Both the position numbers and the translations under genes were made by a program. Positions 38,807-58,226 of a DNA stretch of 64,000 bases are shown here, one piece after another. Every line of letters starts with the position of its first letter. Within the stretch, counting starts at the first letter, position 1. The stretch comes from Desulfuromonadaceae bacterium (GTDB taxonomy: Bacteria > Desulfobacterota > Desulfuromonadia > Geobacterales > Pseudopelobacteraceae). Under the pieces are notes generated by a model, which searched no databases, had not been told where the DNA came from, and saw only the letters and a program-made list of their open reading frames with translations. Where the stretch lies: the NCBI GenBank assembly GCA_028681335.1, contig JAQUIT010000001.1:372001-436000 (forward strand), written 5' to 3'.

Positions 38807-40135
38807 TTAAAATATAATCCGCGAAATTGTATACGCGACAACCGTTGATGTGCAGACTCCGATGAAACCGGGGACCATGAAGCTGTGGTTGAGCAGGTAC
38901 TTGCCGATGTGGGTCGTGCCGGTGCGGTCCATGTTGATCGCGGCCAGGTCACTGGGGTAGAAGGCAAAGAAGAAGTAGGCGTAGCTGGCCGGCATCAAGC
39001 CAAGGAGCAACGGTACCGGCAGGCCGAGTGCCAGTCCCAGCGGCAGTGTGATTGCGAGGGTGGCTGCCTGGCTTTTGACGAAGGCAGAGATGCAGAAGGT
39101 GGCGATGGCGAAGGTCCAAGGTGCCATTTTTACCATAATGCCGATGTTGTCCACCAGAAACTTTTTGTTGGCGGTGATGAACGTATCACTCATCCAGGCG
39201 ATGCCGAAGATTGATACGACCGCGATCATGCCGGCGATGAAGACGCTGGAGTGGGCGATGTCCTTGGCCTTGACGTTGGAGGAGAACATAATGAAGGCAC
39301 CGAAGGCGAGCATGACGAACTGGACGACCGTGGTCATGGCGACCGGTTTATTGCCTGCCGTCATTGGCAGCAGTTCGGGAACGCTGGCCAACAGGATGAT
39401 TGAGCCGACGCCGGTGAAGAAGAGTGCTACCGAAATCTTGGCGTTGATGGAAATTTTTTTATCAAGTGTGGTAACGTCGGCATCAAGTGCTTTCTTGAAA
39501 TCAGGGTCCTTCAGCCGCTCCTGAAATTCCGGGTCCTTGTCCAGGTCCTTGCCACGATTGAAGCTCCAGGCTGCTGCAGCCAGCACGCCTATAACGCCGG
39601 CCGGCATTGTGACCATGATAATATCGATCAGGGTTACCGGATAACCGGCTTTGGCAGCAAAGCCGAGAAAAAAGGTTACGGCCGCTGCGACCGGGCTGGC
39701 GGTGATACCCATCTGTGAGGCCACGCTGGAAATTGCCATAGGGCGCTCGGGGCGGATGCCGGTCTTGAGAGCTACATCGGAGATAACCGGCAGCAGGGCG
39801 TAAACGGCATGGCCGGTGCCACAGCATACCGTGAGGAAGAAGGTCGAGAGCGGTGCCAGAACCGTCACATATTTGGGGTGGGCGCGCAGCAGTTTTTCCG
39901 TCAGCTGCACCAGGTAATCAAGGCCGCCTGCTACCTGTAGTGTTGCCGATGCCGTTACGACCGCCAGGATGATAAGCATGACGGCAATCGGCGGTTCCGA
40001 CGGAGGACTGCGGAAGCCGAGCACCAGCACAGAAACTCCGAGGCCGCCGATCAGGCCGAGTGCGACACCTCCTCTGCGGATACCGATAAGAACGGCACCC
40101 AGTACGAGCACAAATTGAATCCAGAACATTGCCAT
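38807..40135 (-). CDS. dcuB: Anaerobic C4-dicarboxylate exchanger (DcuA/DcuB family)
   Basis: Inner-membrane antiporter for fumarate/succinate and similar acids. The 442 residues with 10-12 membrane segments carry family motifs close to E. coli DcuB: IGIRRGGVALGLIGGLG, VVTASATLQVAGGLD, CCGTGHAVYALLPVI, IRPERPMAISSVASQMGI, FNRGKDLDKDPEFQ and YPSDLAAINMDRTGTTHIG. ATG 40135 has GGAGGT upstream; the GTG at 40147 is rejected. A sigma-54 promoter and operator array lie upstream. In Geobacter-type bacteria this exchanger supports fumarate respiration. Confidence 0.93.
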   Translation of the reverse strand: MAMFWIQFVLVLGAVLIGIRRGGVALGLIGGLGVSVLVLGFRSPPSEPPIAVMLIILAVVTASATLQVAGGLDYLVQLTEKLLRAHPKYVTVLAPLSTFFLTVCCGTGHAVYALLPVISDVALKTGIRPERPMAISSVASQMGITASPVAAAVTFFLGFAAKAGYPVTLIDIIMVTMPAGVIGVLAAAAWSFNRGKDLDKDPEFQERLKDPDFKKALDADVTTLDKKISINAKISVALFFTGVGSIILLASVPELLPMTAGNKPVAMTTVVQFVMLAFGAFIMFSSNVKAKDIAHSSVFIAGMIAVVSIFGIAWMSDTFITANKKFLVDNIGIMVKMAPWTFAIATFCISAFVKSQAATLAITLPLGLALGLPVPLLLGLMPASYAYFFFAFYPSDLAAINMDRTGTTHIGKYLLNHSFMVPGFIGVCTSTVVAYTISRIIF

Positions 40136-40207: not shown

Positions 40208-40222
40208 GCATGGAGAATGCCA
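40208..40222 (-). promoter_or_regulatory. Sigma-54 promoter of dcuB
   Basis: The minus strand reads TGGCATTCTCCATGC, matching the -24/-12 signature TGGCA-N7-TGC with exactly ten bases between GG and GC. It lies 73 bases before the dcuB ATG, so transcription would start about 60 bases upstream of the gene. Four dyad operators sit just upstream, where an enhancer-binding activator would bind. Confidence 0.75.
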
Positions 40223-40237
40223 AAAACAGATTATTTT

Positions 40238-40404
40238 ATAACCATCCGTAATTGCTCGTTAAAATAGGTCTTGTGGCGATTCGGAGATGATGCGTTTTTA
40301 TAACCAGGGGTTATGGAAAACAGACATAACTTTGGATAAATACTTTGTTTCCAGTATGATAGGCGCCGTTATAACCGGAGGTTATAATTATAATCTCCGG
40401 TTAT
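40238..40404. promoter_or_regulatory. Four-copy ATAACC-N3-GGTTAT operator array upstream of dcuB
   Basis: Fifteen-base dyads: ATAACCATCCGTAAT (40238-40252, degenerate), ATAACCAGGGGTTAT (40300-40314), ATAACCGGAGGTTAT (40371-40385) and ATAATCTCCGGTTAT (40390-40404). The two strongest sites are 19 bases apart, about two helical turns. They lie 16-196 bases upstream of the sigma-54 box, fitting binding sites for an enhancer-binding protein. The protein itself is not in the window. Confidence 0.7.
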
Positions 40405-40442: not shown

Positions 40443-40564
40443 TGTCACTACAACCATAAAATGGCAAAAGTGACATCTTATGCTTGTTTCTTCTATTGAC
40501 ACTTTATGCTTGTTTCTTTGTATCAGGTTTCCTGTTAAACATCAGGCCATCTGAAGCTGAAGAA
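40443..40564. repeat. Left transposon end with transposase-site-like repeats
   Basis: Terminal repeat 40443-40466 reads CAACCATAAAATGGCA at its inner part. Two 22-base direct repeats starting TGACATCTTATGCTTG (40471) and TGACACTTTATGCTTG (40497) lie 26 bases apart, and a weaker match GCCATCTGAAGCT starts at 40546. They fit the consensus TG-N-CAT-N-TTATG-N-TT of the right end. The two or three inner copies point the same way as the right-end sites rather than inverted, which is unusual. The rest, to 40721, holds no convincing gene. Confidence 0.75.
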
Positions 40565-40721
40565 AGTTTTCTTATCGTGAGTGTCAATACCGAGGTGTTC
40601 AAGGAGGGGAACAAATATCCCGTGGGGACTGTTCAGTTAGAAATCCACGTTCTGTTCTTAGATACGTTGCTTATTTTTGGGTTAGTTTGATTAGTCGCAT
40701 CGTTGTCTCCTATTAGATCAA

Positions 40722-43700
40722 TTACGCCGCCGCCCGTAGCCCAATCTCTTCCAGCAGATGAATGATCTTCGTCGCTCCTGCATCACCAAATACTCCATCC
40801 AAACCTTCATTATGGATGTCGGTAAAAGGTGGCTCGTACAGCAGGCCAGGGTCCATGGTTCCGTTCTGGGTAAGGTAGCTGACCACCTGATCGATGAACC
40901 TGATCTGTGCCGCCGAATAGGTGGTGTTTTGCAGAAACTCACCGAAGGCCTCGCTGGCCGCCCCGCGATCCAGTCCTACCAGCTTGCGGATAAACGCTCC
41001 GAGGCTCTGCTGGTGACCGAAGACCTTTTCGAAACGCTCCCGATTGCCCACCTCTTCTGCAGTGAACAATAGCCGTTCCAGCTCTTCCAGATCCAACTTT
41101 GTAATCTGCCGGTTCATGCGCAGTTTGTTGATGGTGATGTGGTTGGCGTTGTCGCGGATGAAACGCTCCACCTTCAGCCGGTACTGGCTCATCTCCTCGG
41201 CGCTGGCATATCCCGCTACGAATATCTCCGACTGCTCACCGATGGTATCCTCAAAGTCGGTATAGACGATGACAGCTTCGCCCTTGTCCAGGAATTTGAT
41301 CAATGCTCTCAGCCGGACGCGTACATCCTCCAGCAGCGGCAGGGTTATGCCGGACCAATAGCTTTCGGTTTGCAGATCAAGAATCAACTCCATCTGCCGG
41401 GCCACCATCGGAATGGTACCCTTCCCTTCCAACCTGACAGCGATCTCCATGACCTTGTCACGGTTGCGGGAAAAGGTGCCGGACTTTTCCAGCAGCGCCA
41501 GTTGCAGGTTCAACATAAGCAGGTCGAAACGCTTGGCAGTTTCGTCTTCCTGGGGCAGCTCCGCCGGCAATCCCGCCAGATGGAGTGTCACTTCCAATTC
41601 ATCTTCGGCAGTCAGTCTGGACCAGTGCTCCCTGACCGCGTATTTCTCCAGATGGCGGCGATGGGGACGGACGATGAAGTTGTCCGGGTTCATCAGGGTC
41701 ACTTCGCCATGCAGAACATCCTCCAAGCTTCCTCGCAGTCGCTGCAGTCCGTCACCGGTCGGGATGTCCGGTTGTTGCAGCAACAGCAGCAGATTCAGCC
41801 GCTGCTTGAAGATCTTTTTGCCCAGCGATTCCTGACTGGAGCCTTCGATCCCTTCCGGGTTTTCGGCAAAGAACTCGAAGTTCTGGCAGTAGTCGAAGAC
41901 GTAGAAGTTCTCCTTGTCCAGTCCTGGCCCGAACAGATCTTTGCAGAGACGGGTACCGCGTCCCATCATCTGGTGGAACTTGGTCTTGGAGCGGACCAGC
42001 TTAAAGAAGACCAGGTTGACGATCTCCGGCACGTCGATGCCGGTATCCAGCATATCCACTGAGATGGCAATGACCGGGTCGCTCTCCTTCTGGGAAAAGT
42101 CCTCAATCAAGGTCTGGGCGTAGGTCTCGTAGTTGTCGATCACCCGGCAGAACCTGCCCTTCAGGTGCGGATAACTTTTATCGAAACGTTCCTGGATGAA
42201 TAGAGCGTGGTTGTGGTTCTTGGCAAAGATGATCGTCTTGCCGAGCCGGTCGCCTCCGGCCACCTTGACGCCGTAGCGCATCAGGTGTTCCAGCACCTTG
42301 TCCACCGTGTCGATGTTGAACAGCCAGTTGTTCAGCGCCGATGACTCGATCTTCTCCGGCATGCCGCCGTTTTCCTCGTCCCAGAACTTCTCCTCGTACT
42401 CAGCCTGTTCCTCCGGGGAGAGATCGTTGTATTTCACCCCTTCCCGCTGGAACTTAAGCGGCACCGAATGCGCCTTGGGCGGCACCAGAAAGCCGTCTGC
42501 CACCGCCTTTTCCAGTTCATAGTAGAAGGTCGGAACCCCCCTCTCCAGTTCGAAGAGCGAATAGGTGTTGCGATCAACCTCGGAGCGCGGCGTGGCGGTC
42601 AACCCCAGCAGCAGGGCATCGAAATACTCGAAGATGGCGCGGAACTTCTGGTAGACGGAACGATGAGCCTCGTCGATGACTATCAGGTCGAAATGGCCGG
42701 GGCTAAAACGCTTGTTGCCCCCTTTTGCTTCGTCGATACAGTTCATCATGGTCGGATAGGTGGAGAGCACGATGCGGCTGGTGGTGTCGTCCTTGATCTT
42801 GGTGATGTTAACCGGACTGGAGTGCGGCAGATGCTCCTTGAAGGCGTTGCCGGCCTGGGTCAGCAAAGCCGTCCGGTCAGCCAGGAACAGCACCCGCTTG
42901 ATCCAGTTGCATTTCTGCAGCAGTTCGATCAAAGCGATTACGGTGCGGGTCTTGCCGGTTCCGGTGGCCATGACCAACAGAGCTTTGCGCAGCTTGCGCC
43001 GTTGGAAGTCCTCAGCCGTGCGGCGGATGGCCTCGTACTGGTAAGGTCGCTCGACAATAGCCTTGTTGATGGTGGCGCTCGTGATCTCCTGGATGCTGGT
43101 GCGGCGGTTAATGAGGAGTTGCAGTTCATCCTTCTTGTAGAACCCCTGCACCTTGCGGGGCGGATAGTTCAGATCATCCCAAAGCCAGGTTTCGTAGCCG
43201 TTGGTAAAGAAAATGATCGGGCGTTGCCCCTTCATCCGTTCCAGGCAGTCGGCATACAGCTTGGCCTGCTGCTGGCCGATGCGCGAGTCTTTCCTGGTCC
43301 GTTTGGCCTCGACCACCGCCAACGGCAGGCCATCGTCGCCCCACAGCACGTAATCTACAAAGCCTTCGCCCTTGTCGTTGGGCATCCCCACTACCGGGTA
43401 TTCCAGCACATCCGGTGCAGTTAGGTCCCAGCCCACTTCCCGTAAATACAGGTCAATAATGACATTCCTGGTTTCCGCCTCGGAATAGTCATGGTCGTCA
43501 ATAATCTGTTTGTTGCGCTCTTTGCGCTCCGCAAACTCTTGGATTCTAGCCTTGAGCGCTTCAACCTCTTCGATAGTTCTGGCCAGTTCCGCTTCCCTGG
43601 CGGCCAGCCGGGTGTCCTTCTCGGCCTGCTCGGCCTGAAGCTTGGCCAGCTGTTCGGCGTTGCGGTCGGCGACTGTGCTGTCTTTCTGCGGAATGCATGT

Positions 43701-44111
43701 GATGTTGAAGAGCTGTTTGCCGATGGCCGTCGTAGATGGGGAATAGCTGCGGGCCAGCCAGTAGAGGACGTGGAAGAGTTCTTTGAGGGTGTGCAGGGAA
43801 TCGCTGTTGCTGATCGGTTTATCGCTATGAACGGCAAGGTTACCGATTTTCTGGATGGTGAGGATCTTGGGGAAGAGACATGGCTCCAAGTTCTCCCGGA
43901 AGGTCGGTTCGTGAATCAGGGCGGCCAGATTGTCGGCGTATGGTTGCTTGAGATAGGAGTCATTGGCATAGAGCCACTTCACAGCCCGTTCCAGCGAGCG
44001 CCGGGCATAGAAGCAGCTGGTCCGTGGGGCGCTGTTGACGTTCTGCTCAGCTTCACGGGCCGTTTCGTAGAGTTCAGGCCAGTCCTGCTGGAGAAAGGTG
44101 AAGTTGGACAT
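40722..44111 (-). CDS. hsdR: Type I restriction enzyme R subunit
   Basis: Translocating endonuclease subunit that cuts unmodified DNA. The 1,129 residues run: N-terminal DUF4145-like helical domain (1-about 145), coiled coil (150-205), nuclease domain with D253 and E268-x-K270 (VVEAK), helicase with Walker A ATGTGKT at 382-388 and DEAH at 480-483, and a C-terminal EcoEI-R-like domain (about 880-1120). It reads minus, with its stop nearest the left end. It is separated from hsdMS by five other genes, an atypical split, and lies 2 bases after the Sel1 gene. Confidence 0.93.
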   Translation of the reverse strand: MSNFTFLQQDWPELYETAREAEQNVNSAPRTSCFYARRSLERAVKWLYANDSYLKQPYADNLAALIHEPTFRENLEPCLFPKILTIQKIGNLAVHSDKPISNSDSLHTLKELFHVLYWLARSYSPSTTAIGKQLFNITCIPQKDSTVADRNAEQLAKLQAEQAEKDTRLAAREAELARTIEEVEALKARIQEFAERKERNKQIIDDHDYSEAETRNVIIDLYLREVGWDLTAPDVLEYPVVGMPNDKGEGFVDYVLWGDDGLPLAVVEAKRTRKDSRIGQQQAKLYADCLERMKGQRPIIFFTNGYETWLWDDLNYPPRKVQGFYKKDELQLLINRRTSIQEITSATINKAIVERPYQYEAIRRTAEDFQRRKLRKALLVMATGTGKTRTVIALIELLQKCNWIKRVLFLADRTALLTQAGNAFKEHLPHSSPVNITKIKDDTTSRIVLSTYPTMMNCIDEAKGGNKRFSPGHFDLIVIDEAHRSVYQKFRAIFEYFDALLLGLTATPRSEVDRNTYSLFELERGVPTFYYELEKAVADGFLVPPKAHSVPLKFQREGVKYNDLSPEEQAEYEEKFWDEENGGMPEKIESSALNNWLFNIDTVDKVLEHLMRYGVKVAGGDRLGKTIIFAKNHNHALFIQERFDKSYPHLKGRFCRVIDNYETYAQTLIEDFSQKESDPVIAISVDMLDTGIDVPEIVNLVFFKLVRSKTKFHQMMGRGTRLCKDLFGPGLDKENFYVFDYCQNFEFFAENPEGIEGSSQESLGKKIFKQRLNLLLLLQQPDIPTGDGLQRLRGSLEDVLHGEVTLMNPDNFIVRPHRRHLEKYAVREHWSRLTAEDELEVTLHLAGLPAELPQEDETAKRFDLLMLNLQLALLEKSGTFSRNRDKVMEIAVRLEGKGTIPMVARQMELILDLQTESYWSGITLPLLEDVRVRLRALIKFLDKGEAVIVYTDFEDTIGEQSEIFVAGYASAEEMSQYRLKVERFIRDNANHITINKLRMNRQITKLDLEELERLLFTAEEVGNRERFEKVFGHQQSLGAFIRKLVGLDRGAASEAFGEFLQNTTYSAAQIRFIDQVVSYLTQNGTMDPGLLYEPPFTDIHNEGLDGVFGDAGATKIIHLLEEIGLRAAA

Positions 44112-44113
44112 TG

Positions 44114-45055
44114 CTACTCCGGTATATTGGTTTGTTGCTTTACCTTACCAGTTGGTTTTTCCCAAATTAATTTTGCTTTTTGCTGTGCTTGTTCGATCTG
44201 AGCTGAAGTCATTTCCTTGCCAATAAGCGTCATCGCATCCCGAGCTTGTTTTTCTCCGTTTGCAGCAGCCAATGAGACCCAACAATAAGCATCGACAAAG
44301 TTTTCTGGCACACCTTGCCCCAAGCGATACATAATGCCAAGATTTAACTGTGCGTTGGCGTTTCCTCGTTCAGCAGCCATACGATACAACTTCACCGCCA
44401 ATTTGTCGTCTTGTTGCAAACCTTGCCCCTTGCTGTACATGAAACCGAGTGCTGATTGTGCTCTGGCATTACCTTGATCAGCAGCTTTCCACCACCAATT
44501 TATCGCCTCAGTATAATCCTGGGGAATCCCTTGACCTTCATAGTACTTGAAACCCAGGCTACATTGCGCGTCAGAGTAGCCTTGTTCCGCAGCCATACGA
44601 TATAACTTCACTGCTTCTTTGAAGTCCTGTGGCACACTGACACCATCGTTATATTTGAGACCTAGGCTGTACTGTGCCATGACGTTTCTTTGATCAGCAG
44701 CCTTTCGCAACCATTTCACCGCCTCTTTGTTATCCTGTAGCAAACTATCGGCATTCAAGTACAGGAAACCAAGGAGCGCTTGTGCAGAAGCATTTCCTTG
44801 TTCAGCAGCCTGTCTATACAACTTCTCGGCCATTCTATAATTCTGCGGTTGACTTTGCCCGTTTTCGTACATGAGACCAAGGCGTAACTGAGCGTCAGCA
44901 TTTCCTTTTTTTGCTTCAGCTGAATAAATACTGAAAGCCTTGTTGTAATCACGTGAGGAAAGAGATTTATTTGCATCTTCCATTAACCCTGCCCATGAAT
45001 GTTGAGCGATGACCATAACGAGAATGGAGGAAATTATTACGGTGGTATGTTTCAT
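44114..45055 (-). CDS. Exported Sel1-repeat protein
   Basis: The 313-residue protein has a signal peptide (1-22, SWA|G) and about six tandem Sel1-like repeats of about 36 residues between 40 and 290, each with the AxxxYxxAAxxGxAxAQxxLGxxYxxGxG pattern (for example AVKLYRMAAEQGYSDAQ). Such arrays are protein-interaction solenoids. It abuts hsdR (2 bases), so it is cotranscribed. A periplasmic Sel1 protein inside a restriction locus is unexplained; a partner for the neighbouring membrane proteins is a guess. Confidence 0.88.
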   Translation of the reverse strand: MKHTTVIISSILVMVIAQHSWAGLMEDANKSLSSRDYNKAFSIYSAEAKKGNADAQLRLGLMYENGQSQPQNYRMAEKLYRQAAEQGNASAQALLGFLYLNADSLLQDNKEAVKWLRKAADQRNVMAQYSLGLKYNDGVSVPQDFKEAVKLYRMAAEQGYSDAQCSLGFKYYEGQGIPQDYTEAINWWWKAADQGNARAQSALGFMYSKGQGLQQDDKLAVKLYRMAAERGNANAQLNLGIMYRLGQGVPENFVDAYCWVSLAAANGEKQARDAMTLIGKEMTSAQIEQAQQKAKLIWEKPTGKVKQQTNIPE

Positions 45056-45097
45056 ACCTATTCCTTTCCTGGTTCACTTTAAGATGTACCTACGACG

Positions 45098-46192
45098 TTA
45101 ATCGTTAACGTACTCTTCCATACAATTATAAGCATGGTAATTAATTGCACCACCACCCCTCTGTGAGGTGTAATGTTTAAAGTCACGCCCCATTTCAACT
45201 AAACACGATACGGGGTTATCCCTTTGAAGTTTTTTTATCTCTTCTTTGGTATTACTAATATTGAAGAGGCCACCAATTGCAAGTGAACTTGCAAATAGAG
45301 AGACAGACGATGCAAACGGAATATTGAATAATGAGCCAAGTGCTATAGGCGCAGGGAAGCCCATCATCGAAACTCCAAACCATCCTTTGGCTTTTATTAT
45401 ATCAGCCGATTTTTGGTAATTTATTTTAGCTTTTTTGAATTCAACTATCTTATCTTCTATTAAGTCTAGTCTTATCGAATGGTCCTCAATTTGCTGTAAC
45501 TCGCTGTAAACTTCATATATCGCTCTACGTAAATTTTCTATTTCATCTTTTCTCTTTTCTCTAAAAACCACTATTTCACTTGATGGTATCTCGCTAATAT
45601 TAATTGGAGATATTTCACTGAGCAACAGGCTATAATAAAAGAATGGGTTGTCAATATAATCGGCAGCGTAATCGTGTGCAACACACTCATCAAGTCCGCC
45701 CTCTAAGCAAAAATAAGTTGTTCCGGTCCATGGAGCCCAGTCGTTAGTTATTAGTTGTAAATTGTTTCTTCTCGCAATTTCTTTGGCAAGAAATAGCATA
45801 TAGTTTGAAGCCAATTCTGTTGGCACATGCACCCAATTCTCGTCTTGACCGTATCCCAAAGATGAAAAAAGCTCCCGTATTTTATAATCAGTCTTGTCTT
45901 TATGTATTAAAGTTAATTGCTTTTCTTCTTCAACATCGCAAACAAGTGCTGCCGCTGACCAATTTTCCAAACTTTCAAGAAAAATTTCTGATGCCTCTTT
46001 AGAATACGGTATAGGGTCAATTGACTGTCCAATATAGCCAGTTTCTAAAAGAGGAATAATTTCATCACAATCTTTTGTTCCAACTGTGTTTGGGACAATC
46101 CTGTAAATTCTATTATAAAAAAGAGACATTGCTTTTAGCCAACTTGTGTCTTTAAAGTTGATATGTGGGTAATACAAAGCATTGTCGAACAT
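45098..46192 (-). CDS. DUF6236-like protein of unknown function
   Basis: A 364-residue protein whose start (NALYYPHINFKDTSWLKAMSLFYNRIYRIVPN) matches the DUF6236-type pattern recognised from memory; function unknown. It has an alpha/beta N-terminal region, a helical middle (NLRRAIYEVYSELQQIEDHS), then a Gly/Ala/Ser hydrophobic stretch (about 290-335) that could be a membrane hairpin. ATG 46192 has AAGGAG six bases upstream. The low GC of 45.1-46.2 kb differs from the chromosomal flanks and suggests separate acquisition. Confidence 0.6.
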   Translation of the reverse strand: MFDNALYYPHINFKDTSWLKAMSLFYNRIYRIVPNTVGTKDCDEIIPLLETGYIGQSIDPIPYSKEASEIFLESLENWSAAALVCDVEEEKQLTLIHKDKTDYKIRELFSSLGYGQDENWVHVPTELASNYMLFLAKEIARRNNLQLITNDWAPWTGTTYFCLEGGLDECVAHDYAADYIDNPFFYYSLLLSEISPINISEIPSSEIVVFREKRKDEIENLRRAIYEVYSELQQIEDHSIRLDLIEDKIVEFKKAKINYQKSADIIKAKGWFGVSMMGFPAPIALGSLFNIPFASSVSLFASSLAIGGLFNISNTKEEIKKLQRDNPVSCLVEMGRDFKHYTSQRGGGAINYHAYNCMEEYVND

Positions 46193-46319
46193 TGAATTCT
46201 CCTTGCTCATATAGTGCATTTACGCAAGCAAATATATTCATCATTCAGTCGATAGGAAATCAGCCTCATAAGCAGCGACTAAATCAAGCAGTGTGACCAA
46301 TTAGATCACCAAAATTTTG

Positions 46320-46913
46320 CTAGCGATTTATAAGTTCGCGGCAAACCTCTTCTAATTCTCCTATCGTTTTTTCAAGATCAGGAAAGGCACAAGCGAGCTT
46401 GGTTGAAGTAACCGCAGCGATGGCCAGATAAGCAACCAAATGAATCATAAAATACAGGCATATTTCTCTGAGGAGGAGAGATCTATCAGCAAGGAGTGCG
46501 CATCCATATAGGAATATCAAGATGATAGGGACAATCGGTACAAGTGTAAGTTCGCGCCGAATGTACTTACTATACCGGTGGGATTGCGCTTCTTGCGTTA
46601 TAAAATCTTTGATGTCGACATTTTTATCGTAGCCTTGCTTTGAAGCATTATCAATTATTTCACGCAATAGATTGCCCAATTTGTCCCAGGCTTTCAGATA
46701 ATCAAGAACCTCTTTAAGCATGTACTGCCGAAACAGCAGCCCGGAAACGGCTAAAACACCACCAAGAAAAGTTACAAAACCTGTATTCAATTTGGAGGAA
46801 TCCCCAAACCAAGTGAATACGGCTACCCACGCCCCTAGTGTGAGACTTGCGGCGAAGGCCGCAAAAATTAGATCACGTAAAATTGATACGTTAGGTTCAA
46901 TTCGAGTTGCCAT
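46320..46913 (-). CDS. Four-helix membrane protein, unknown
   Basis: Not recognised. The 197 residues hold four predicted membrane helices (about 13-35, 47-67, 122-140 and 147-168) with a cytoplasmic helical loop between helices 2 and 3 and a Glu-rich C-terminus. The pattern of paired helices around a soluble loop is seen in several pore-forming defence effectors, but no family is identified. The start ATG immediately follows the stop of the upstream gene, so the two are coupled. AT-rich like its neighbours. Confidence 0.6.
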   Translation of the reverse strand: MATRIEPNVSILRDLIFAAFAASLTLGAWVAVFTWFGDSSKLNTGFVTFLGGVLAVSGLLFRQYMLKEVLDYLKAWDKLGNLLREIIDNASKQGYDKNVDIKDFITQEAQSHRYSKYIRRELTLVPIVPIILIFLYGCALLADRSLLLREICLYFMIHLVAYLAIAAVTSTKLACAFPDLEKTIGELEEVCRELINR

Positions 46914-47807
46914 TTATTGATACCGATTTCCGAAATACTTTTCCAGATAACCTTTGATTTTCTCAGATAAAGTTCTCGGAGCTGCAAGTTCCACTTCAGT
47001 CAGCTGTATTATAGCCGTCTCGGCTTCTGGCCGTTCTCTACTACTCCAACTCGTTCCAATATTAGATCTAGTCCCCTTGGCTCTCATACGCAGTCTTCGA
47101 TCAGCCACTGCTTGATCAAGCTCCTCGACATCGGCTTCCTCAAGTTGAGGTTCATTGGCAATAAGGTCAACACTTTCAGAATGGAGAGAACTTTTGAACG
47201 ATTTTGCTGTATCCCGAATTGATTGCACCAAGCTGTCAGGCCTGGCAGGAAGGTTTGGTCCAACATAATGTACTGTGATTTTATTGAGATGGTCGAGGCT
47301 TTTATACCACTCGACGAATGAGCCCGTCTTGGCAATGGACTCTACCTCCAACACATAGTGCTGGTCCATTTCAAGCTTTCGGAGTGCCTCATCAAGCAGA
47401 TCAAAAAAGACGGCTGCAAAAGCATTAGCTGATCGAGCAAACCTTGAAACATCAGAAGCTCGGTGTACTACAATAATTTGTAATGGGACATGAACTACAA
47501 TGGGAGTGAAGAATCTCGGCTCTTTTGCATTCTCAAGCTCACCTGGTCGCGGTTCCTCAGCGATACGACCGAGAGGGGGGCGAACGGTAAGTTCAGCAGC
47601 AATGACATCAGTATGAAAAGGTGCAAGGTCCGCAAGCCCCCAGGTACGGTCACCCCTTGTCGAACGTATGCTTGATGGAATCAGCTCAAGAGACTTCCGT
47701 AATAGCTCACTCCTCGATAATGGTTGAGATAGGAGATTCGGTTGTCCGGGGTGCCGTTCTTGATACTGCACCTGAAGCATCCACCAACGCGTTTCATTGT
47801 CAAACAT
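46914..47807 (-). CDS. Soluble unknown protein (297 aa) in the restriction locus
   Basis: Not recognised. No signal peptide or membrane segment. The middle has alternating strands and helices (FFTPIVVHVPLQIIVVHRASD, HYVLEVESIAKTGSFVEWY, ITVHYVGPNLP), then an acidic helix and a charged tail ending KIKGYLEKYFGNRYQ. GAGGGG precedes the ATG. It is coupled to the following membrane protein gene, suggesting a soluble sensor or toxin with a membrane partner; this is speculation from arrangement only. Confidence 0.6.
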   Translation of the reverse strand: MFDNETRWWMLQVQYQERHPGQPNLLSQPLSRSELLRKSLELIPSSIRSTRGDRTWGLADLAPFHTDVIAAELTVRPPLGRIAEEPRPGELENAKEPRFFTPIVVHVPLQIIVVHRASDVSRFARSANAFAAVFFDLLDEALRKLEMDQHYVLEVESIAKTGSFVEWYKSLDHLNKITVHYVGPNLPARPDSLVQSIRDTAKSFKSSLHSESVDLIANEPQLEEADVEELDQAVADRRLRMRAKGTRSNIGTSWSSRERPEAETAIIQLTEVELAAPRTLSEKIKGYLEKYFGNRYQ

Positions 47808-47862
47808 GCAGCCCCCTCTGAGGTGTCATGACACTCAACAGATAATTTATTAGCAGTATAAG

Positions 47863-48879
47863 CTAGTCGGTTGATTTTGTGACGCTTTTCGTCATGAGTT
47901 CAAGAATGGATTTCGAGCCTGATGTTGATTCACCTTTCCCATGAGAGAAACCAGTCTCTTGCGGTGAAAAGATACAAGAAGCCGCATGAGCTAGAACAAT
48001 GTCTTCCGTTCCTTTGTTAGCTGATGCTTCAACAAGAGCACGATATGTCAACAGTGCATTTTGTCGGTGCCGATTCACCACAGCATTATGCTTGTGTGTA
48101 GTGTAATTTCTCGATGCCATTAAAAGTAAATACCCCAACACGCCGAAAATCAGAAATTTACTGCTGATGAGTTGAAACATTTCGGCAGATCCTTCAGGTT
48201 TAATCCATTCAATTTTGTGAAGGAATAAGCTAAAGACAGCAAAAACTCCCACAGCTGCCGCGAACTTGTATGTGTATGTAAGCCACGTGGCAGCCAATAA
48301 TTCTTGATCATCTACCTCCTGTTTAAAATAGCTGGCTTGTTGAGAAACCCCTTGCTCTGCAGCTACTGCACGGATCGCGGCCAATGCCTCGTCTGCATTA
48401 ATCTTAGCAACTTTCAACTGCTCTGTGAGTTTATCCGATTGGTCTTTAATGGATTGTATAGTAGCGCGTGCTTGTGTTTCCAACAGGCTGGTATCAGTGA
48501 TCCTCGCGACTCCGTACGCGACATACTGCCAAAGTTGGTCGAAAAGGGGGTCTCGCCTTGTTTTGAGAGTGGTAAGAATACTGGTGCGGGTGGTAGAGGC
48601 GTCAGCCGTGGTGGCATCAAAGTCGAGTATTTGCTTAAAAACGTTAAAATCGGCTTGTGCCTGTTTGCCAATTGCGTTCAACTGCGTGTCAGAGAAGTCT
48701 TCGAGAGCAGTCAAAGGAATGCGTCTGTAAATGTCTATAAGTGCATTAGCAGGTGCAACTGCTTCCTTGAAATTCAGTTGATTTCCGAGATCAGCTTCAC
48801 GACTAAGTGAAGTGGAGTCAAACTGCTGTACGCGGATTAAAGCTTCACTGGTACTTTCATAAATTGACTCTGTAGCCAT
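47863..48879 (-). CDS. Two-helix membrane protein with coiled-coil N-terminus, unknown
   Basis: Not recognised. The 338 residues have a long helical N-terminal part (coiled coil around 130-200), two membrane helices (about 204-221 and 242-255) and a cytoplasmic C-terminus with RHRQNALLTYRALVEA and a region rich in Gly/Ser. This topology resembles membrane accessory proteins of phage-defence loci. AAGGAG sits before ATG 48879. It follows hsdS, in the gap where accessory genes often sit in type I loci. Confidence 0.6.
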   Translation of the reverse strand: MATESIYESTSEALIRVQQFDSTSLSREADLGNQLNFKEAVAPANALIDIYRRIPLTALEDFSDTQLNAIGKQAQADFNVFKQILDFDATTADASTTRTSILTTLKTRRDPLFDQLWQYVAYGVARITDTSLLETQARATIQSIKDQSDKLTEQLKVAKINADEALAAIRAVAAEQGVSQQASYFKQEVDDQELLAATWLTYTYKFAAAVGVFAVFSLFLHKIEWIKPEGSAEMFQLISSKFLIFGVLGYLLLMASRNYTTHKHNAVVNRHRQNALLTYRALVEASANKGTEDIVLAHAASCIFSPQETGFSHGKGESTSGSKSILELMTKSVTKSTD

Positions 48880-48950
48880 AAATTCTCCTTGTGGTTGCGT
48901 TTAAAAACACGAACACCGATAAACTACAGGGTGAAAATTCGAAATATTAT

Positions 48951-50081
48951 CTACAGTTCCCCCTTAAAGGCACATTGCAGGAGGGAACTGAAGAGATAGC
49001 TGGTGGTCATTTCTGTTTCAATCAATCGTCTTTTCAGTTTCTGGGTGTTTGAAACACTTTTCGCAAATCTCTGCTGCAAGTCCAGAGATGGCATGAGCAC
49101 TGGGAAGTTTTTAAGCTGCGTCGAGTTGATAGAAGCAATACCCGTCGTCTGCTTTGCTGCCCGCAGAAAGTAGCGTTTACCTCTTTCACTGCCGATAAGC
49201 ACACTCAGAAAATCTGGCAATAATTTATAGTATTTTATCCTGACGCGGAATATGTGATTTTGATGTATGCAATCTTCAACGTGTTCCCTCCAGACCGTTC
49301 CACGGCCCAATTTATCCGGGTCGCCGCCTTCTGTCAGTAGGATGTCGCCATCAAGTAGACGGTACTTCACAATATCAGACGGCAATACTTCTATTTCCTT
49401 GATTTCGCTCAGATTCAAATATCCGTCTTGTACGTTGGCCACACGTAAGTAAGGGGCTAAAATCGTCTGCTTGCCGTCAAGGTTTCTCCCTTTGGTAACG
49501 CCAGATACAATCTCGGCAACATCAATCAAGGCGGCTTCCTCCCACCCCTTCGGATTCGAAACTGGATCACCAAACAAATCCAGAAACACCGAGCGCAGCA
49601 AATCATCAGTCAACCGGACCGCCTCCTGCCGCTTGTGCCGGATAGAATCGGCCTTGTCGAGGATGGCAGCGATGCGCTTTTGTTCGGGGAGTGGGGGAAG
49701 AGGGACAACAACATCCGTCAAATAATTAAGCTTAATATATTTAATTACCCCACCGATGCTCATTTCCCGAAGTTTATGCATGTATGTTGAAAGAAAATAG
49801 TACAAATATCTGACATCAAGAATGTTCTTGTCTATCGATTCAACAATATATGTGCGTTGGTACGCATCAAACTTGCCGCTATAGTATTTTGCATTCAAAT
49901 CACCATTTCCGGCGATCAGCACGCATTCACAGTCGTAACTAAACGATGCAATTCGTAATGGTTCAACAGCGCATGTAAAAAACGGATAGTCACCATCAGG
50001 ATCATTTGCGTTTGCGTCTAATTTTCCGGTGCGTATTCGGACATATTTGCCGAGATTATCTGATTTGAAAATCGGACTCAT
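48951..50081 (-). CDS. hsdS: Type I restriction-modification specificity subunit
   Basis: Chooses the bipartite DNA site for the HsdM/HsdR complex. The 376 residues show two target-recognition domains, each followed by a conserved helix: the first half ends LPPLPEQKRIAAILDKADSIRHKRQEAVRLTDDLLRS, the second begins PVSNPKGWEEAALIDVAEIVSG and ends with LDLQQRFAKSVSNTQKLKRRL. Both halves look intact. Its start overlaps the hsdM stop by four bases (ATGA). The recognition sequence cannot be read from the protein. Confidence 0.9.
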   Translation of the reverse strand: MSPIFKSDNLGKYVRIRTGKLDANANDPDGDYPFFTCAVEPLRIASFSYDCECVLIAGNGDLNAKYYSGKFDAYQRTYIVESIDKNILDVRYLYYFLSTYMHKLREMSIGGVIKYIKLNYLTDVVVPLPPLPEQKRIAAILDKADSIRHKRQEAVRLTDDLLRSVFLDLFGDPVSNPKGWEEAALIDVAEIVSGVTKGRNLDGKQTILAPYLRVANVQDGYLNLSEIKEIEVLPSDIVKYRLLDGDILLTEGGDPDKLGRGTVWREHVEDCIHQNHIFRVRIKYYKLLPDFLSVLIGSERGKRYFLRAAKQTTGIASINSTQLKNFPVLMPSLDLQQRFAKSVSNTQKLKRRLIETEMTTSYLFSSLLQCAFKGEL

Positions 50082-51571
50082 CCAACCATCCCCTTCAACT
50101 CCGCCAACTCCCCGGCAATCTCCCGCTCCAACGCCTCCAACCGGGCAATGATAACCTGCGGTGGCTCATAGGGCACCTCCTCATGCTCCACCTTCTTATA
50201 TCTGTTTATGGAGAGGTCATACTTATTGTCACGGATCTCCTGCACCGGCACGAGGAAGGATTTGGCGGTGCGGTCGGAATCTGCCCCATCCCCACCCCGA
50301 CCCTCCCCTTGAAAGGGAGGGAGCTTTAAGGCACTCCATTTAGCAACCACATCAGGTATATCGTTCTGCTCCACCGGAGTGCGCTTGTCATCCAGCGAGA
50401 AACCATCTGTCTGCATGTCGTAGAACCAGACGTGATCCGTGCCGCCGGAGTTGGTCTTGGTGAAGATCAGTATTCCGGTGGAGACGCCCGCATAGGGACG
50501 GAACACGCCGGATGGCATGGAGATCATTGCCTCCAGCTTGTGGCCGTCCACCAGGATCTTGCGAAGGTCCAGGTGTGCCTTGCTTGAGCCGAACAGCACC
50601 CCGTCCGGCACGATCACTGCGCAGCGCCCGCCCGGCTTCAACAGCCGCAGCATCAGGGCGATGAACAGCAGCTCGGTCTTCTTGGTCTTGACAGTGCGTA
50701 GCAGGTCCTTGGCCACGGTCTCCTCATCAAGCGAACCTTTGAAAGGGGGATTGGCCAGGATCAGGGTAAAGGCGTCGGAAATGTCGCCGGCGCTGCCCGA
50801 GAGGGCGTCACGCGCCTCAATGGCCGGATTCTCGACGCCGTGCAGCATCATGTTCATGCTGGCGATGCGCAGCATGGTCGAGTCGAAGTCGAAACCGTTG
50901 AAGAGCTTGCCGTTGAAGTGGCGCTTCAGCTCTTCGTTGTGGAACAGGTCGGCATGGTTTTCTCTCAAGTACTCGCCGGCCGCCACCAGAAAACCGGCAG
51001 TACCGCAGGCCGGGTCGCAGATGATGTCGTCGGGGCGGGGCTGCATCAGCTCCACCATCATCTTGATGATATGACGGGGGGTGCGGAACTGGCCGTTTCT
51101 GCCGGCGGTGGTCAGTTTGGAGAGCATGTACTCGTACAGATCGCCCTTGGTATCCCGGTCTTCCATCGGCACCTGGCTGATCTGCTCCACTACCCTCTCC
51201 AGCAGGCTGGGGGTGGGGATCATGAAGATGGCGTCCTTCATGTGCCGGGCGTAGGCGGTATCCAGGCCGCCGTGCAGGTTCTTGATGAAGGGGAAGACCT
51301 CCTGGCTGACCACGCGGAACATCTCCTCGGCCTCGAACTCGCGGAAGCGCGACCAGCGCAGATGATCCTGGCCCGCAGCAAAGATCGGCTCCTCAATCGG
51401 CTTGCCCAGCCGGTTAGCCTTCTTCTCTTTGCTTGTATGGATGTCATCCAGGCGTTTGATGAACAGCAGGAAGGAGATCTGCTCGATCACCCGCAGGGGA
51501 TCGGATATCCCACCGGACCAGAATGCATCCCATATCTTGTCTATCTTTGATTTGTTTTCACCAGTCAGCAC
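50078..51571 (-). CDS. hsdM: Type I restriction-modification methylase subunit
   Basis: N6-adenine methyltransferase protecting host DNA. The 497 residues contain motif I DPACGTAGF at 186-194 and the catalytic NPPF at 274-277, with an N-terminal HsdM_N helical domain. Residues about 417-431 (LPPFQGEGRGGDGAD) are an odd Gly/Arg-rich insert encoded by a C-rich palindromic repeat (see 50283-50322). The GTG start at 51571 has GGAG ten bases upstream. It is first in the minus-strand cargo operon, divergent from the transposase genes. Confidence 0.93.
   Translation of the reverse strand: MLTGENKSKIDKIWDAFWSGGISDPLRVIEQISFLLFIKRLDDIHTSKEKKANRLGKPIEEPIFAAGQDHLRWSRFREFEAEEMFRVVSQEVFPFIKNLHGGLDTAYARHMKDAIFMIPTPSLLERVVEQISQVPMEDRDTKGDLYEYMLSKLTTAGRNGQFRTPRHIIKMMVELMQPRPDDIICDPACGTAGFLVAAGEYLRENHADLFHNEELKRHFNGKLFNGFDFDSTMLRIASMNMMLHGVENPAIEARDALSGSAGDISDAFTLILANPPFKGSLDEETVAKDLLRTVKTKKTELLFIALMLRLLKPGGRCAVIVPDGVLFGSSKAHLDLRKILVDGHKLEAMISMPSGVFRPYAGVSTGILIFTKTNSGGTDHVWFYDMQTDGFSLDDKRTPVEQNDIPDVVAKWSALKLPPFQGEGRGGDGADSDRTAKSFLVPVQEIRDNKYDLSINRYKKVEHEEVPYEPPQVIIARLEALEREIAGELAELKGMVG
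50283..50322. repeat. C-rich dispersed-type repeat inserted in hsdM
   Basis: A C-rich stretch followed by the near-palindrome CCCTCCCCTTGAAAGGGAGGG (arms around 50302-50322). Its translation, PPFQGEGRGGDG, is typical of a mobile intergenic repeat read through in frame. It keeps the hsdM frame open, so the enzyme may still work. Confidence 0.6.
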
Positions 51572-51948
51572 GTGGGTGTTTCTCCTTCAATATTGATCCT
51601 TGTCACGCTTGTATTGTTGCTAGTTTCAGGAGCGAAAGCGAGGATTGGGAACGGCCTGAGACAAGCTTGCAATCAGGTGGTAGCTCCGAGATTAGTGCTG
51701 ATAGAAATTTGAGAATAGTCCTGGAACTTGTAGGCACATTGTTTTTTGGGACTATATCCCAGTCTTTGCTCAATAACAATATCATTAGAAAATATATAAT
51801 TATCCTTGCTTTCTTGGCCTATTTAAACAAGGCGGAACAGGCCGAGGTAAGCAGACACCATTTGTGTATCAAATCAACAAAAAGTGCAATGATTTTAGTA
51901 GCTTGCACTTAATTCCGATTCCATCTATTATGTTGGGCGGAGGTGCTT
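51572..51948. promoter_or_regulatory. Divergent control region between hsdM and tnsAB
   Basis: 377 bases with no gene. It holds the promoters for both cargo and transposition genes. An 8-bp inverted repeat, AAGTGCAA (51882-51889) and TTGCACTT (51903-51910), lies 38 bases before the tnsAB start and is a candidate operator. AT-rich sequence (51765-51830) could be a promoter. No CRISPR repeat was seen. Confidence 0.5.
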
Positions 51949-54600
51949 ATGACAGATGAAGAATTCAATTCATGGGTTTACAAACACAAAATACCAGCTC
52001 ATGCGGTAAACATTATCCGGCAGGTTCGCGAAAACGAACCGTTCCGTCGTGTGCAGGGCGGCAAGAGCAACGTTGCCGGCCGCTATCCCAGCCGCAAAAT
52101 GGGCTGCATCATCCAGTTCGAGAGTCATCAGGTGGAATTTCCCTTTGCCGTTGATTTTGAAAACGATGAAGAGATCATCGAATTCTACGACCAGCCTGTT
52201 TCCGTAAAATTGACCTATAAAAATATCAAAGGCAGGCATCTTGGAATCATTTCAAGGCCAGATTATTTCCTCATTCAGTCTAATGGCACTGCCGGATGGG
52301 TCGAATGCAAGACCGAAGAAGAATTAATCCGCCTCTCAGAAAAGGCACCAAATCGCTATTGTAAAGATGAGAAGGGATGTTGGCGATCACCGCCTGGCGA
52401 GGAATACGCTAGTCAATACGACTTGTTTTTCAAAATCATGTCTTCTGCAGAGATTAATTGGTTTTTTTTTCGGAATCTTATTTTCCTGCAAGACTACCAG
52501 CGAGAAGAATCAATGGTAGCACCTGAAATCCAGGCATATATCACTACGATAGTTGAATCAAACCAGGGAATTTCGCTGTTGGATCTGCTTCTCGACCAAA
52601 CTAAGTACACTGCAAATGACGTTTATCGCACAATTCTCAATGATGGAATATACGTCGATCTACACCGCTATCCGCTAGGCGAGCCGGAACGAGCCCCGGT
52701 CTTTAGCAGTGAATATAAATCGCTAGCTCACGCTCAGCCTCAGAGAACTCAGAAGTATTTGAGTCTGCCCACGCAGATAATAATTGAACCAGGGACCGGT
52801 GTTATATGGGCTGGGAACCCGTTCACAATTATGACCGTTGGAGAAGGTTTTGTTTGGCTGCAAAATGAACACTGCAGTATCTGCAAGCTGCCCATATCAG
52901 ACTTTGAATCTTTGATCGATAATGGGGAAGTTACAGGTGTTCCGCTCAACACTATGATTGAAAATAACGTTTTAGCGCTCTTAAAGAAAATGTCGGGTGA
53001 TGACCACAAACGGGCATTGAGTCGGAGAGACGAAATAGCTCGCTTCCTGTCTGGCGACGAAAAGCTGACTCCTGACCGTAGTGAATACCGCTGGATTAAG
53101 AAATACAAGGAAGCAGAAGCACTTTTTGGAATTGGTTTTATAGGCCTGTATGACAAAAACTCCAATAAGGGAAATAAGAAACCACGATTACATAAAGATT
53201 CTTATGATCTCATGGATTTATTCATTGAGACCGAACATTTGACCCTCGAAGACTCCAGTGTGAAAACCGCATATGGACAGTATGTTAAAGCGTGTGGCGA
53301 AGCAGGAATTAGTAAAATTAGCTACGAAACCTTTCGTAAGCGGATCAAGGCAATAGATGCCGAACTGAGAGCTGGGAAAAGAAAAGGGAAGCGGTCTGCA
53401 TACCAACTTAAACCTTTTTATACCGCACTCACCTACACAACATCACGCCATGGCGAAAGACCTTTTGAAATTGCACACATCGACCACACCGAGCTTGATA
53501 TCGAACTTATAAATCCAAGAACCTTAGAAAATTTAGGCAGGCCATGGCTAACCCTAATGGCTGATGCATATAGCAGAAGGATTCTTGCTTTTTATCTCAG
53601 TTTTGAACCACCAAGTTATCGATCCTGCATGAACGTAATGCGCATTTGCGGCCTCCGCCACAAATGCCTACCTCAAATTATCGTTGTGGACAATGGCAAG
53701 GAATTCAAATCAACTTATTTTGAACTGCTGTTAGCGTCAAAAGAAATAACTAAAAAAGAACGCCCACCGGCACAATCGCGATTCGGTTCACTCATTGAAC
53801 GTCTGTTTAATACTACAAACAGTGCGTTTATTCACACATTACAGGGCAACACCCAGATTATGAAAGAAGTCAGGGAGGTAACAAAATCAAATAACCCGAA
53901 AAACAGAGCAGTTTGGAATTTTTCAATACTTACAGATAAACTCGCCGAATATTTGTATGAAGTCTATGACTCAATGCATCATACCGGAATCAGGGAATCA
54001 CCACGAGATGCATTCAACCGAGGTCTATTCCTTTTCGGAAAACGTCGGATCATAACGCCAAGCGCTATACAGGGCTTCGTATTCAGTACGATGCCGACTA
54101 CCGACTCGGGTGAGGCAACCGTCATCCAATCCCAGGGAGTTAAGATTAATAACATTTATTATCGTCATGCCGCACTGAACACTCCGGGAGTCGTTGGTTC
54201 CAAAGTACAGGTAAAGTACGATCCGTTCAATCTGGGACATGCCTATGCATATATTGGCAATAACTGGACTGAGTGCATGTCTGAGTATTATGCGCAGTTT
54301 AAAGATCTTACAGAAAAGGAGCTGCAAGTCATCAGTGTGCAGCTGGCTGCAGAATATGCTCAGAACCATTCGAAGACGATTGTAAGCGCTCAAAAAATAG
54401 CCGCATTCATTGCCGCGACAAAGGGCACTGAGAAAGAGCTTATCCAACAGAAATTAGCTGAAGAACAGCGGGGTAAGTTCAGCTTCAAAGAAAATGTCAG
54501 CAATCCCGTTAAATCTGAATCTGCAATGGCTATCGCCGATTTTGATTGGAATAATGATGACAAGACAGAATCAGATGATGAATACCGAATTCTCAGTTAA
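51949..54600 (+). CDS. tnsAB: TnsA-TnsB fusion transposase of a Tn7-like element
   Basis: Cuts both strands at the transposon ends and joins them to the target. The 883 residues fuse a TnsA-like nuclease (about 40-190; candidate catalytic E58, D105, E119-x-K121) to a TnsB-like DDE integrase: D512 (AHIDHT), D581 (VVDNGKEF) and E617 (SLIERLF), spaced as DD35E, preceded by DNA-binding helices (about 200-490) and followed by a basic C-terminal domain. A fused form fits cut-and-paste transposition. GGAGG precedes ATG 51949; the GTG at 51943 overlaps that ribosome site. No frameshift is needed to join the halves. Confidence 0.92.
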   Translation: MTDEEFNSWVYKHKIPAHAVNIIRQVRENEPFRRVQGGKSNVAGRYPSRKMGCIIQFESHQVEFPFAVDFENDEEIIEFYDQPVSVKLTYKNIKGRHLGIISRPDYFLIQSNGTAGWVECKTEEELIRLSEKAPNRYCKDEKGCWRSPPGEEYASQYDLFFKIMSSAEINWFFFRNLIFLQDYQREESMVAPEIQAYITTIVESNQGISLLDLLLDQTKYTANDVYRTILNDGIYVDLHRYPLGEPERAPVFSSEYKSLAHAQPQRTQKYLSLPTQIIIEPGTGVIWAGNPFTIMTVGEGFVWLQNEHCSICKLPISDFESLIDNGEVTGVPLNTMIENNVLALLKKMSGDDHKRALSRRDEIARFLSGDEKLTPDRSEYRWIKKYKEAEALFGIGFIGLYDKNSNKGNKKPRLHKDSYDLMDLFIETEHLTLEDSSVKTAYGQYVKACGEAGISKISYETFRKRIKAIDAELRAGKRKGKRSAYQLKPFYTALTYTTSRHGERPFEIAHIDHTELDIELINPRTLENLGRPWLTLMADAYSRRILAFYLSFEPPSYRSCMNVMRICGLRHKCLPQIIVVDNGKEFKSTYFELLLASKEITKKERPPAQSRFGSLIERLFNTTNSAFIHTLQGNTQIMKEVREVTKSNNPKNRAVWNFSILTDKLAEYLYEVYDSMHHTGIRESPRDAFNRGLFLFGKRRIITPSAIQGFVFSTMPTTDSGEATVIQSQGVKINNIYYRHAALNTPGVVGSKVQVKYDPFNLGHAYAYIGNNWTECMSEYYAQFKDLTEKELQVISVQLAAEYAQNHSKTIVSAQKIAAFIAATKGTEKELIQQKLAEEQRGKFSFKENVSNPVKSESAMAIADFDWNNDDKTESDDEYRILS

Positions 54601-54609
54601 GGAAAAGGC

Positions 54610-56903: not shown

Positions 56904-56913
56904 GTAAAATAAT

Positions 56914-57129
56914 ATGTTATTGCGTTGTTTTGAGAGCTTGGCGCTGTCACATCGAGATGGAGGTATCACATGTTATGAGCGGTACCCGTATAACAGAAAT
57001 ATTGTTTATCATTGGGTTTCAACACGAAACCTGGACTTCGATGGGCAACCACCGATTGAGGTCATGAAGGAAGGGTTAGATGGGTTAAGGCGAGTCAGGC
57101 ATTACCTTGATTATCAGCTGCTATGTTGA
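56914..57129 (+). CDS. Small unknown protein after tniQ
   Basis: Not recognised. A 71-residue reading opens 10 bases past the tniQ stop, with only a weak ribosome site (AGG). It is hydrophilic and Tyr/Arg-rich with three Cys. Being in the same transcript and in the expected position for a minor transposition factor is suggestive, but it could be non-coding. Confidence 0.35.
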   Translation: MLLRCFESLALSHRDGGITCYERYPYNRNIVYHWVSTRNLDFDGQPPIEVMKEGLDGLRRVRHYLDYQLLC

Positions 57130-57163
57130 CCGCCTATATTCCAATTTTGTAAGGAGTTCCTGC

Positions 57164-57736
57164 ATGAAACGCGACAAAATAGCGCTGTTTGACCTCGACG
57201 ATACCTTGGCTGATTACAGCGGGCAGCTTCTAAATGACCTTCAATTGCTTGCGTCCGAGTATGAACCCGCACCAGTGCTTTATTCCGGTATCCCTTACTT
57301 GGAAGCTAGGTGCCATGTGATCACCTCGCAGATTGGCTGGTGGCTCAAACTCGATAAATTAAAACTCGGCTGGGACGTACTTGAAGCAGCCAAAGAAATC
57401 GGCTACGAAATTTCTGTCCTCACAAAAGGACCGTCTCGGAAATTCGCCGCATGGGCAGAAAAGGTTGAATGGTGCAATCGCCATCTGTCTGATTATATAG
57501 ACGGAGTTACTGTTACTCACGACAAGGGGTTGGTGTACGGCGCGGTTCTCGTCGATGACTGGCCAGAGTACGTCTTGCGGTGGCTCGAGCACAGACCTCG
57601 GGGGGTAGTTGTTATGCCGGCGCATGATTACAATACAGCTTTTACCCATCCCAATGTAGTTCGCTATGATGGGACGAATATCGATGAAGTCAAGACTCGA
57701 ATGCTGGCCAGGTATCAACCTGCATTTGGAGCATAA
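57164..57736 (+). CDS. HAD-superfamily 5'-nucleotidase-like protein
   Basis: A 190-residue HAD phosphatase with the nucleophile/acid pair D10-x-D12 (LFDLDDTLADY) and later VLTKGPS and VLVDDWPEY motifs, close to the 5'(3')-deoxyribonucleotidase (NT5C) class. It would remove phosphate from nucleotides. ATG 57164 follows AAGGAG; the longer reading from 57107 is rejected. It is the last gene inside the transposon's right end. A link to nucleotide depletion in defence is only a hypothesis. Confidence 0.75.
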   Translation: MKRDKIALFDLDDTLADYSGQLLNDLQLLASEYEPAPVLYSGIPYLEARCHVITSQIGWWLKLDKLKLGWDVLEAAKEIGYEISVLTKGPSRKFAAWAEKVEWCNRHLSDYIDGVTVTHDKGLVYGAVLVDDWPEYVLRWLEHRPRGVVVMPAHDYNTAFTHPNVVRYDGTNIDEVKTRMLARYQPAFGA

Positions 57737-58151: not shown

Positions 58152-58226
58152 ACTTTAGTTGACCGGCAATCAAAAGCTCTTCACTATCACCGCAAGCGTA
58201 AATGCTGATTACGGGGGGGAGGCACA

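Follow-up and report, generated by a model that had tools for sequence, protein, structure and literature searches.

The dcuB control region in the DNA analysed in this study (the window, a stretch of 64,000 nucleotides) very probably belongs to a two-component, sigma-54-dependent system for C4-dicarboxylates, in which a response regulator would be bound to an array of dyads upstream of a -24/-12 promoter. Judged by its sequence, the upstream region appears to be a real and functional-looking sigma-54 enhancer array. Its anatomy, its conservation, the order of the genes around it and a dyad length that follows the clade of the regulator can be read from the DNA of the window and its relatives.

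The dcuB promoter and its upstream dyads

The features of the region are listed in Table 1. The dcuB gene is here the succinate/fumarate exchanger gene in a relative of Geobacter; its start is probably the ATG at 40135, which is preceded by GGAGG, and transcription would be expected to begin near 40196. The sigma-54 promoter consensus is TGGCAC-N5-TTGC, and the sequence TGGCATTCTCCATGC, with two mismatches to it, is recognisable as a sigma-54 box. By itself the box is not above chance, as the window holds 71 two-mismatch matches to TGGCAC-N5-TTGC versus 76 expected, and this lone, non-significant box carries weight only because of its fixed position in relatives, being present at the corresponding place in 39 of 39 rows of an alignment that was anchored on the box. 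Sigma-54 is encoded in the same genome (PF04552, E 1.3e-63). The preliminary description was right about this GG-N10-GC box, which lies at 40222-40208 on the minus strand, and had proposed sigma-54 control of dcuB, which is supported by the joint conservation of box and array and by the RpoN promoter of G. sulfurreducens dcuB, mapped by primer extension (PMC2725144, in excerpt).

Table 1. Positions of the features of the dcuB region, in window coordinates unless otherwise given
Feature	Position	Strand	Basis or remark
dcuB, C4-dicarboxylate exchanger	38807..40135	minus	PF03605, Pfam E 4.1e-141; NCBIfam PRK12489
-24/-12 box TGGCATTCTCCATGC, GG-N10-GC	40208..40222	minus	sequence; same place in relatives
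Site 4, weak promoter-proximal dyad ATTACGGATGGTTAT, 10/12	40238..40252	minus	start 30 bp before TGG; place conserved
Site 3, ATAACCCCTGGTTAT, 12/12	40300..40314	minus	dyad match; start 92 bp before TGG
Site 2, ATAACCTCCGGTTAT, 12/12	40371..40385	minus	dyad match; start 163 bp before TGG
Site 1, ATAACCGGAGATTAT, 11/12	40390..40404	minus	dyad match; start 182 bp before TGG
Tn7-like element, 17,704 bp, between array and regulator gene	40443..58146	.	inverted ends, TAATT duplication, TniA/TniB/TniQ-type genes
Remaining DNA between array and regulator	58147..64000	.	up to window end
Regulator gene of the same genome	G000:C36:436669-438075 (window scale 64669-66075, just outside the window)	minus	orthologue match

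The four ATAACC-N3-GGTTAT dyads that had been noted before the box are real, matching 11, 12, 12 and 10 of 12 positions in sites 1 to 4. Sites 1 and 2 form a close pair with a spacing of 19 bp (1.81 turns), and sites 2 and 3, which are the perfect dyads, are separated by 71 bp (6.76 turns); the remark that the two strongest dyads lie two helical turns apart was therefore wrong. Positions of 92 to 182 bp before the TGG suit upstream enhancers (about 100-200 bp), and this placement is conserved. When the 240-bp region was simulated 20,000 times under a Markov-1 model, one dyad of at least 11/12 arose in 26 simulations and two arose in none; the real region contains three. The genome (4,005,089 bases in 40 contigs) has two perfect ATAACC-N3-GGTTAT sites, both in the dcuB array, and 10 sites with no more than one mismatch, of which three belong to the array; the reversed control pattern gave three. 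A wider regulon of perfect sites in this genome was considered and rejected, with six of the seven other near matches lying inside listed reading frames and one (L003) abutting one. Some bases are also conserved in the stretch from site 2 to site 3, with no clear match to the IHF consensus, and an IHF site there is at most a possibility.

Conservation was assessed in the best 80 of the 138 dcuB relatives found. The closest set comprised 39 loci with upstream DNA (L012-L049 and L085); L011, which begins too close to the gene to judge, is outside it. An array, sometimes degenerate, was found in all 39 loci. Thirty-five have 15-bp dyads, with at least one at no more than two mismatches, and four (L026, L027, L028 and L039) have the same array built of 14-bp dyads, ATAAC-N4-GTTAT. 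The ATAACC dyad was absent from the other 40 of the best 80 loci (Holophagaceae, Anaeromyxobacter, beta-/alphaproteobacteria and others). The 39 rows of the box-anchored alignment are the window and 38 loci, L020 having been dropped as a near copy of L014. Sites 1 and 2 are 19 bp apart in 29 of the 35 15-bp rows and 18 bp apart in all four 14-bp rows; among the 15-bp rows, sites 2 and 3 are 70-72 bp apart in 31 and site 3 lies 90-94 bp before the TGG in 34, the exception being L023, which was misplaced by a forced fit because its array sits closer to the box. The second dyad is degenerate in three 15-bp rows (L034, L037 and L049). The place of the -30 site, site 4, is conserved as well (mean match of 5.74 of 10 over 35 loci, versus 2.65, sd 0.66, over all offsets).

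A candidate regulator separated from its array

In the locus DNA examined, a gene whose product, about 471 residues long, is a sigma-54 response regulator lies upstream of dcuB, on its strand, at 31 of the 39 loci. At seven of the other eight, the activator gene is found further upstream on the same contig, for a total of 38 of 39; the sole exception is L020, a 6.7-kb contig. This gene order agrees with the enhancer-binding activator predicted in the preliminary description and supplies a candidate for the regulator that it had called unknown. The check proposed there was to look for activator genes close to further dyads of this kind; it gave a positive result across genomes.

In the genome of the window, the regulator gene shares the strand of the array and lies 24.3 kb further upstream; it is an open frame with no internal stop, and its product is 88% identical to the L019 protein. 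The protein has a receiver (PF00072), a sigma-54 AAA+ domain (PF00158) and a Fis-type HTH (PF02954), and the regulators of relatives carry a GAFTGA or GAYTGA loop, a make-up of the NtrC/DctD type. A kinase gene adjoins it on the far side from the window, with SBP_bac_3 (E 6.8e-39), HisKA and HATPase_c domains; the best solved match to the sensor domain is 3h7m, 'Sensor protein' (E 6.7e-101). The dcuB regulator is likely to be this response regulator of the DctD/NtrC type, paired with its SBP-domain kinase. The AlphaFold model of the regulator is poor overall (mean pLDDT 61.8) and usable for the receiver and DNA-binding domain only, the latter with ten-residue blocks at 80-83 from 431 to 470 and helices at 429-443, 448-455 and 459-470.

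Comparison of the loci indicates that the regulator gene is normally next to the array and is here displaced 24 kb by inserted DNA. The gap between the two is variable: many genomes have little there beyond the array, seven have about 4 to 13 kb, and the genome of the window has 24.3 kb. The Tn7-like element ends 38 bp from site 1 and is flanked by a 5-bp TAATT target duplication (40438-40442 and 58147-58151), as is characteristic of such elements. Mobile DNA thus parts the array from the regulator gene while the enhancer array stays with the promoter. The element carries a type I R-M system, an 885-aa protein at 51943-54600 that by eye looks like a TnsA-TnsB fusion, and TTATGCTTGTTTCTT repeats near its low end. 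Also in the gap are an AAA ATPase and glycosyltransferase pair (61774-63264 and 63314-63931 onward). Such a pair was found at dctA loci of other genomes as well (L192:3724-6533; L196:5469-6647, the latter by glycosyltransferase resemblance), and therefore the same cargo may visit both dcuB and dctA gaps. On the other side of dcuB, positions 26645-38079 hold two similar-looking large-protein gene sets, 26645-30106 with 30173-31588 and 33244-36786 with 36868-38079, the second of which had no NCBIfam match.

Dyad length and regulator clade

The regulator set comprised 85 family members, scoring over 540 bits, from the loci collected. Dyad length was assigned for 79 of them (E10, E21, E34, E36, E55 and E59 were left out), of which 47 have 15-bp and 32 have 14-bp dyads. 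Within 700 bp downstream of the 85 regulators, ATAAC-N(gap)-GTTAT, with one mismatch allowed, occurred 1, 2, 56, 89, 6, 3 and 7 times at gaps of 2 to 8, respectively; the dyads concentrate behind the regulator genes at gaps 4 and 5. Exact tandem pairs were present in 9 (15 bp) and 17 (14 bp) of 76 family genomes, 23 genomes altogether, and reversed controls gave none. They occurred in 21 of the 50 family genomes with the regulator (E 1e-185) versus two of the 26 without it, both of the latter being incomplete (66% and 73%).

A regulator tree was built from the receiver and AAA+ parts, with the DNA-binding domain excluded (42 and 27 labelled rows, 18 unlabelled). Twenty-one dyad-length labels were set by eye before this regulator-only tree, and 10 were added after it, six from new DNA and four where the -30 site had caused an automatic tie. 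On the tree, the 15/14-bp length needs one change, compared to shuffled means of 21.5 and 21.7, with 0 of 500 as low. Six regulators that were unlabelled at the tree stage (E16, E17, E22, E25, E26 and E56) all had the array length that their clade predicted. The 15-bp targets are dcuB, dcuB2 and the flavocytochrome operon, and the 14-bp targets are dctA and Trichlorobacter-type dcuB; on this evidence, dyad length follows the clade of the regulator and not the target gene. Regulator, array and transporter are linked, and therefore common descent alone could align dyad length with clade, the change being one event on the tree.

The trees disagree on the origin of the Trichlorobacter-type systems. 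In the DcuB tree the 14-bp dcuB genes are nested inside the 15-bp ones, in conflict with a kinase plus regulator tree (70 of 85 pairs) in which the regulators of 14-bp dcuB genes group next to the 15-bp clade (99*). The DcuB and regulator-only trees had suggested that regulators were swapped at Trichlorobacter dcuB. This was not upheld: the ordinary grouping survived an AU test (p 0.234), and the placement in the kinase plus regulator tree also weakens it.

Two further systems of the 15-bp class were observed. The dcuB2 genes (L250, L251 and L252), whose products are 44-46% identical to DcuB, have their own kinase/regulator pair and 15-bp array. In the genome of the window, locus L122 (C6:27000-40000) contains a paralogous kinase/regulator pair followed by a flavocytochrome c fumarate-reductase-like gene, an MFS transporter and an OprD porin. 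The flavocytochrome array has the same layout and 15-bp dyads with a different half-site, ATAGCC/ATTGCC, and its regulator has a different recognition helix (PSLWKRLK).

Among the 79 classified Geobacterales regulators, column 435 is the only one that fully splits the length classes, with Phe (45) or Tyr (2) in the 47 of the 15-bp class and Leu in all 32 of the 14-bp class. In the AlphaFold model this residue sits in helix 429-443, the first one of the DNA-binding domain. Other columns split 78 of the 79, and residue 435 is therefore a candidate and not a proven cause, the change counting as one event. The residue after NQT (Leu/Ile) was rejected as a length determinant. It tracks dyad length in most regulators, but E26 has Ile with 15-bp and E52 has Met with 14-bp dyads, and Anaeromyxobacter L063, L068 and L074, which have Leu there with even-length dyads, further contradict it.

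Anaeromyxobacter, a separate lineage, has several dcuB genes with such an activator gene upstream, and the loci examined have a GGCAY-type box. Four of them (L062, L068, L074 and L078) contain a tandem pair 18 bp apart with half-sites of the kind CATGAG-N4-CTCATG, even in length like the 14-bp class; L063 and L080 have two CATGAG-type dyads but no close pair under the strict pattern, and L064 showed neither a readable regulator nor a CATGAG-type pattern. A motif-free count of palindromes gave ratios of odd to even centres of 78:21 at 15-bp loci, 0:7 at 14-bp loci and 4:21 at six Anaeromyxobacter loci. Leu is found at 435 in all six Anaeromyxobacter regulators read. We tentatively suggest, as one possibility, that the distance between half-sites shifted once, by one bp in all strong sites of all arrays, because the first helix changed, with Leu435 reading 14-bp and Phe/Tyr435 reading 15-bp dyads. 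The half-site and recognition helix would otherwise have been largely kept, near-orthogonal dicarboxylate circuits would share one cell, and the promoter-proximal 15-bp site in 14-bp arrays would be read by something else.

Proposed mechanism, alternatives and known systems

Binding, phosphorylation, looping, the inducer and the role of site 4 are what we infer beyond this anatomy. The DctD/NtrC-type activator would be phosphorylated by a membrane kinase whose SBP_bac_3 domain faces the periplasm and, we guess, has a C4-dicarboxylate as its ligand; activator dimers would bind the close pair (sites 1 and 2) and site 3 and oligomerise. The bound AAA+ ring would then loop to RNA polymerase-sigma-54 at the -24/-12 box and open it, turning dcuB on, and the weak -30 site may tune the output in the manner of the glnAp2 governor sites. 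In the genome of the window, the regulator would act from a gene 24 kb away.

It is unlikely that the dyads are instead the site of a non-sigma-54 regulator (a repressor or co-activator) and that the neighbouring activator has its sites elsewhere. The distal dyads differ in length according to the clade of the activator, adjoin activator genes at the dctA, dcuB2 and flavocytochrome loci too, and lie 92 to 182 bp before the TGG, places that suit enhancers. The promoter-proximal site is the point in favour of another protein, since it is 15 bp long even in 14-bp dctA arrays and at least that site may belong to a different binder. In 20 dctA-type 14-bp arrays (E32 and E45 were left out), a -30 site of at least 8/10 was found at gap 5 in 12 and at gap 4 in none, with 6.2% and 4.2%, respectively, in 240 control windows. 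The weak site thus departs from the rule that length follows clade, a single binder does not explain it, and therefore a different protein, or a different mode of reading, may be involved at site 4. The 15-bp regulator was rejected as its reader in dctA arrays, as the site persists in genomes in which only one family member was found (G053, G054, G049 and G041).

It is very unlikely that dcuB is controlled here by a paralogue of the activator, for example the flavocytochrome-linked one (G000:C6:32203-33603), now that the regulator gene is separated from the array. The genome holds 85 matches to the regulator query, some of them receiver domains only, and a related activator could bind the dcuB array instead; the flavocytochrome-linked activator is 69% identical, and the half-sites differ little (ATAACC versus ATAGCC/ATTGCC). 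However, the orthologue is intact, keeps its kinase and matches the 15-bp class, and the paralogue has its own array, another half-site and the PSLWKRLK recognition helix. That box and dyads are chance or relics, with dcuB driven by sigma-70, is highly improbable: taken singly, the box does not exceed chance expectation in the window, but box and array are conserved together and the dcuB promoter of G. sulfurreducens is an RpoN promoter (PMC2725144, in excerpt).

The preferred reading, a two-component activator bound to the array, resembles DctB/DctD at dctA in Rhizobium and DctD in Vibrio vulnificus, where a C4-dicarboxylate carrier is likewise under two-component sigma-54 activation through tandem unequal sites. 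DctB sensing is PAS-like, and the kinase here, with its SBP_bac_3 domain, is not a DctB-type sensor. In the portion of PMC11077940 available, dcuB is among the tentative DctD targets of V. vulnificus, tandem DctD sites appear in a cited title, and DctD sites are given as 18 nt, TGTG-aa----tt-CACA; the TGTG...CACA site differs from ATAACC-N3-GGTTAT, which is therefore not a site of DctB/DctD proper. DcuS/DcuR of E. coli also provide two-component control of C4-dicarboxylate genes (PMC11077940, in excerpt), but E. coli dcuB, itself under a two-component system, uses a sigma-70 promoter, unlike the sigma-54 box here (PMC2725144, in excerpt).

For G. sulfurreducens, sigma-54 control of dcuB and a neighbouring activator gene upstream of it are already known (PMC2725144, in excerpt), and in G. 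bemidjiensis kinase/regulator pairs that are possibly tied to dicarboxylate transport adjoin dcuB, dctA and a porin (PMC2996986, in excerpt); gene, promoter class and neighbouring activator are the same as here. The available parts of these two accounts describe neither a binding site nor an array, and neither spacing nor variation in length, and no published description of the ATAACC dyad motif was found in the literature searched, which covered few subscription journals. Within that literature, the site, the array, its older layout and the one-base length change with clade appear to be new. They provide a concrete candidate regulator and a predicted binding site for a transporter that G. sulfurreducens needs for fumarate respiration. 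In addition, the dcuB, dcuB2, dctA and flavocytochrome systems together amount to a natural experiment in the evolution of half-site spacing, in which a regulator's sites all shift by one base, with residue 435 offered as one candidate for the change.

NtrC at E. coli glnAp2 has two strong distal sites and weak promoter-proximal sites, as here (PMC3870243, in excerpt), and differs from the dcuB array in regulator and site sequence; by this analogy only, a governor role like that of the weak glnAp2 sites is weakly favoured for site 4. The dctA promoters of the 14-bp class (e.g., L199-L224) mostly have GTATAC just upstream of the -24 box, and in most of them a conserved half-dyad, CCGGTTATACCTCTT, replaces site 3.
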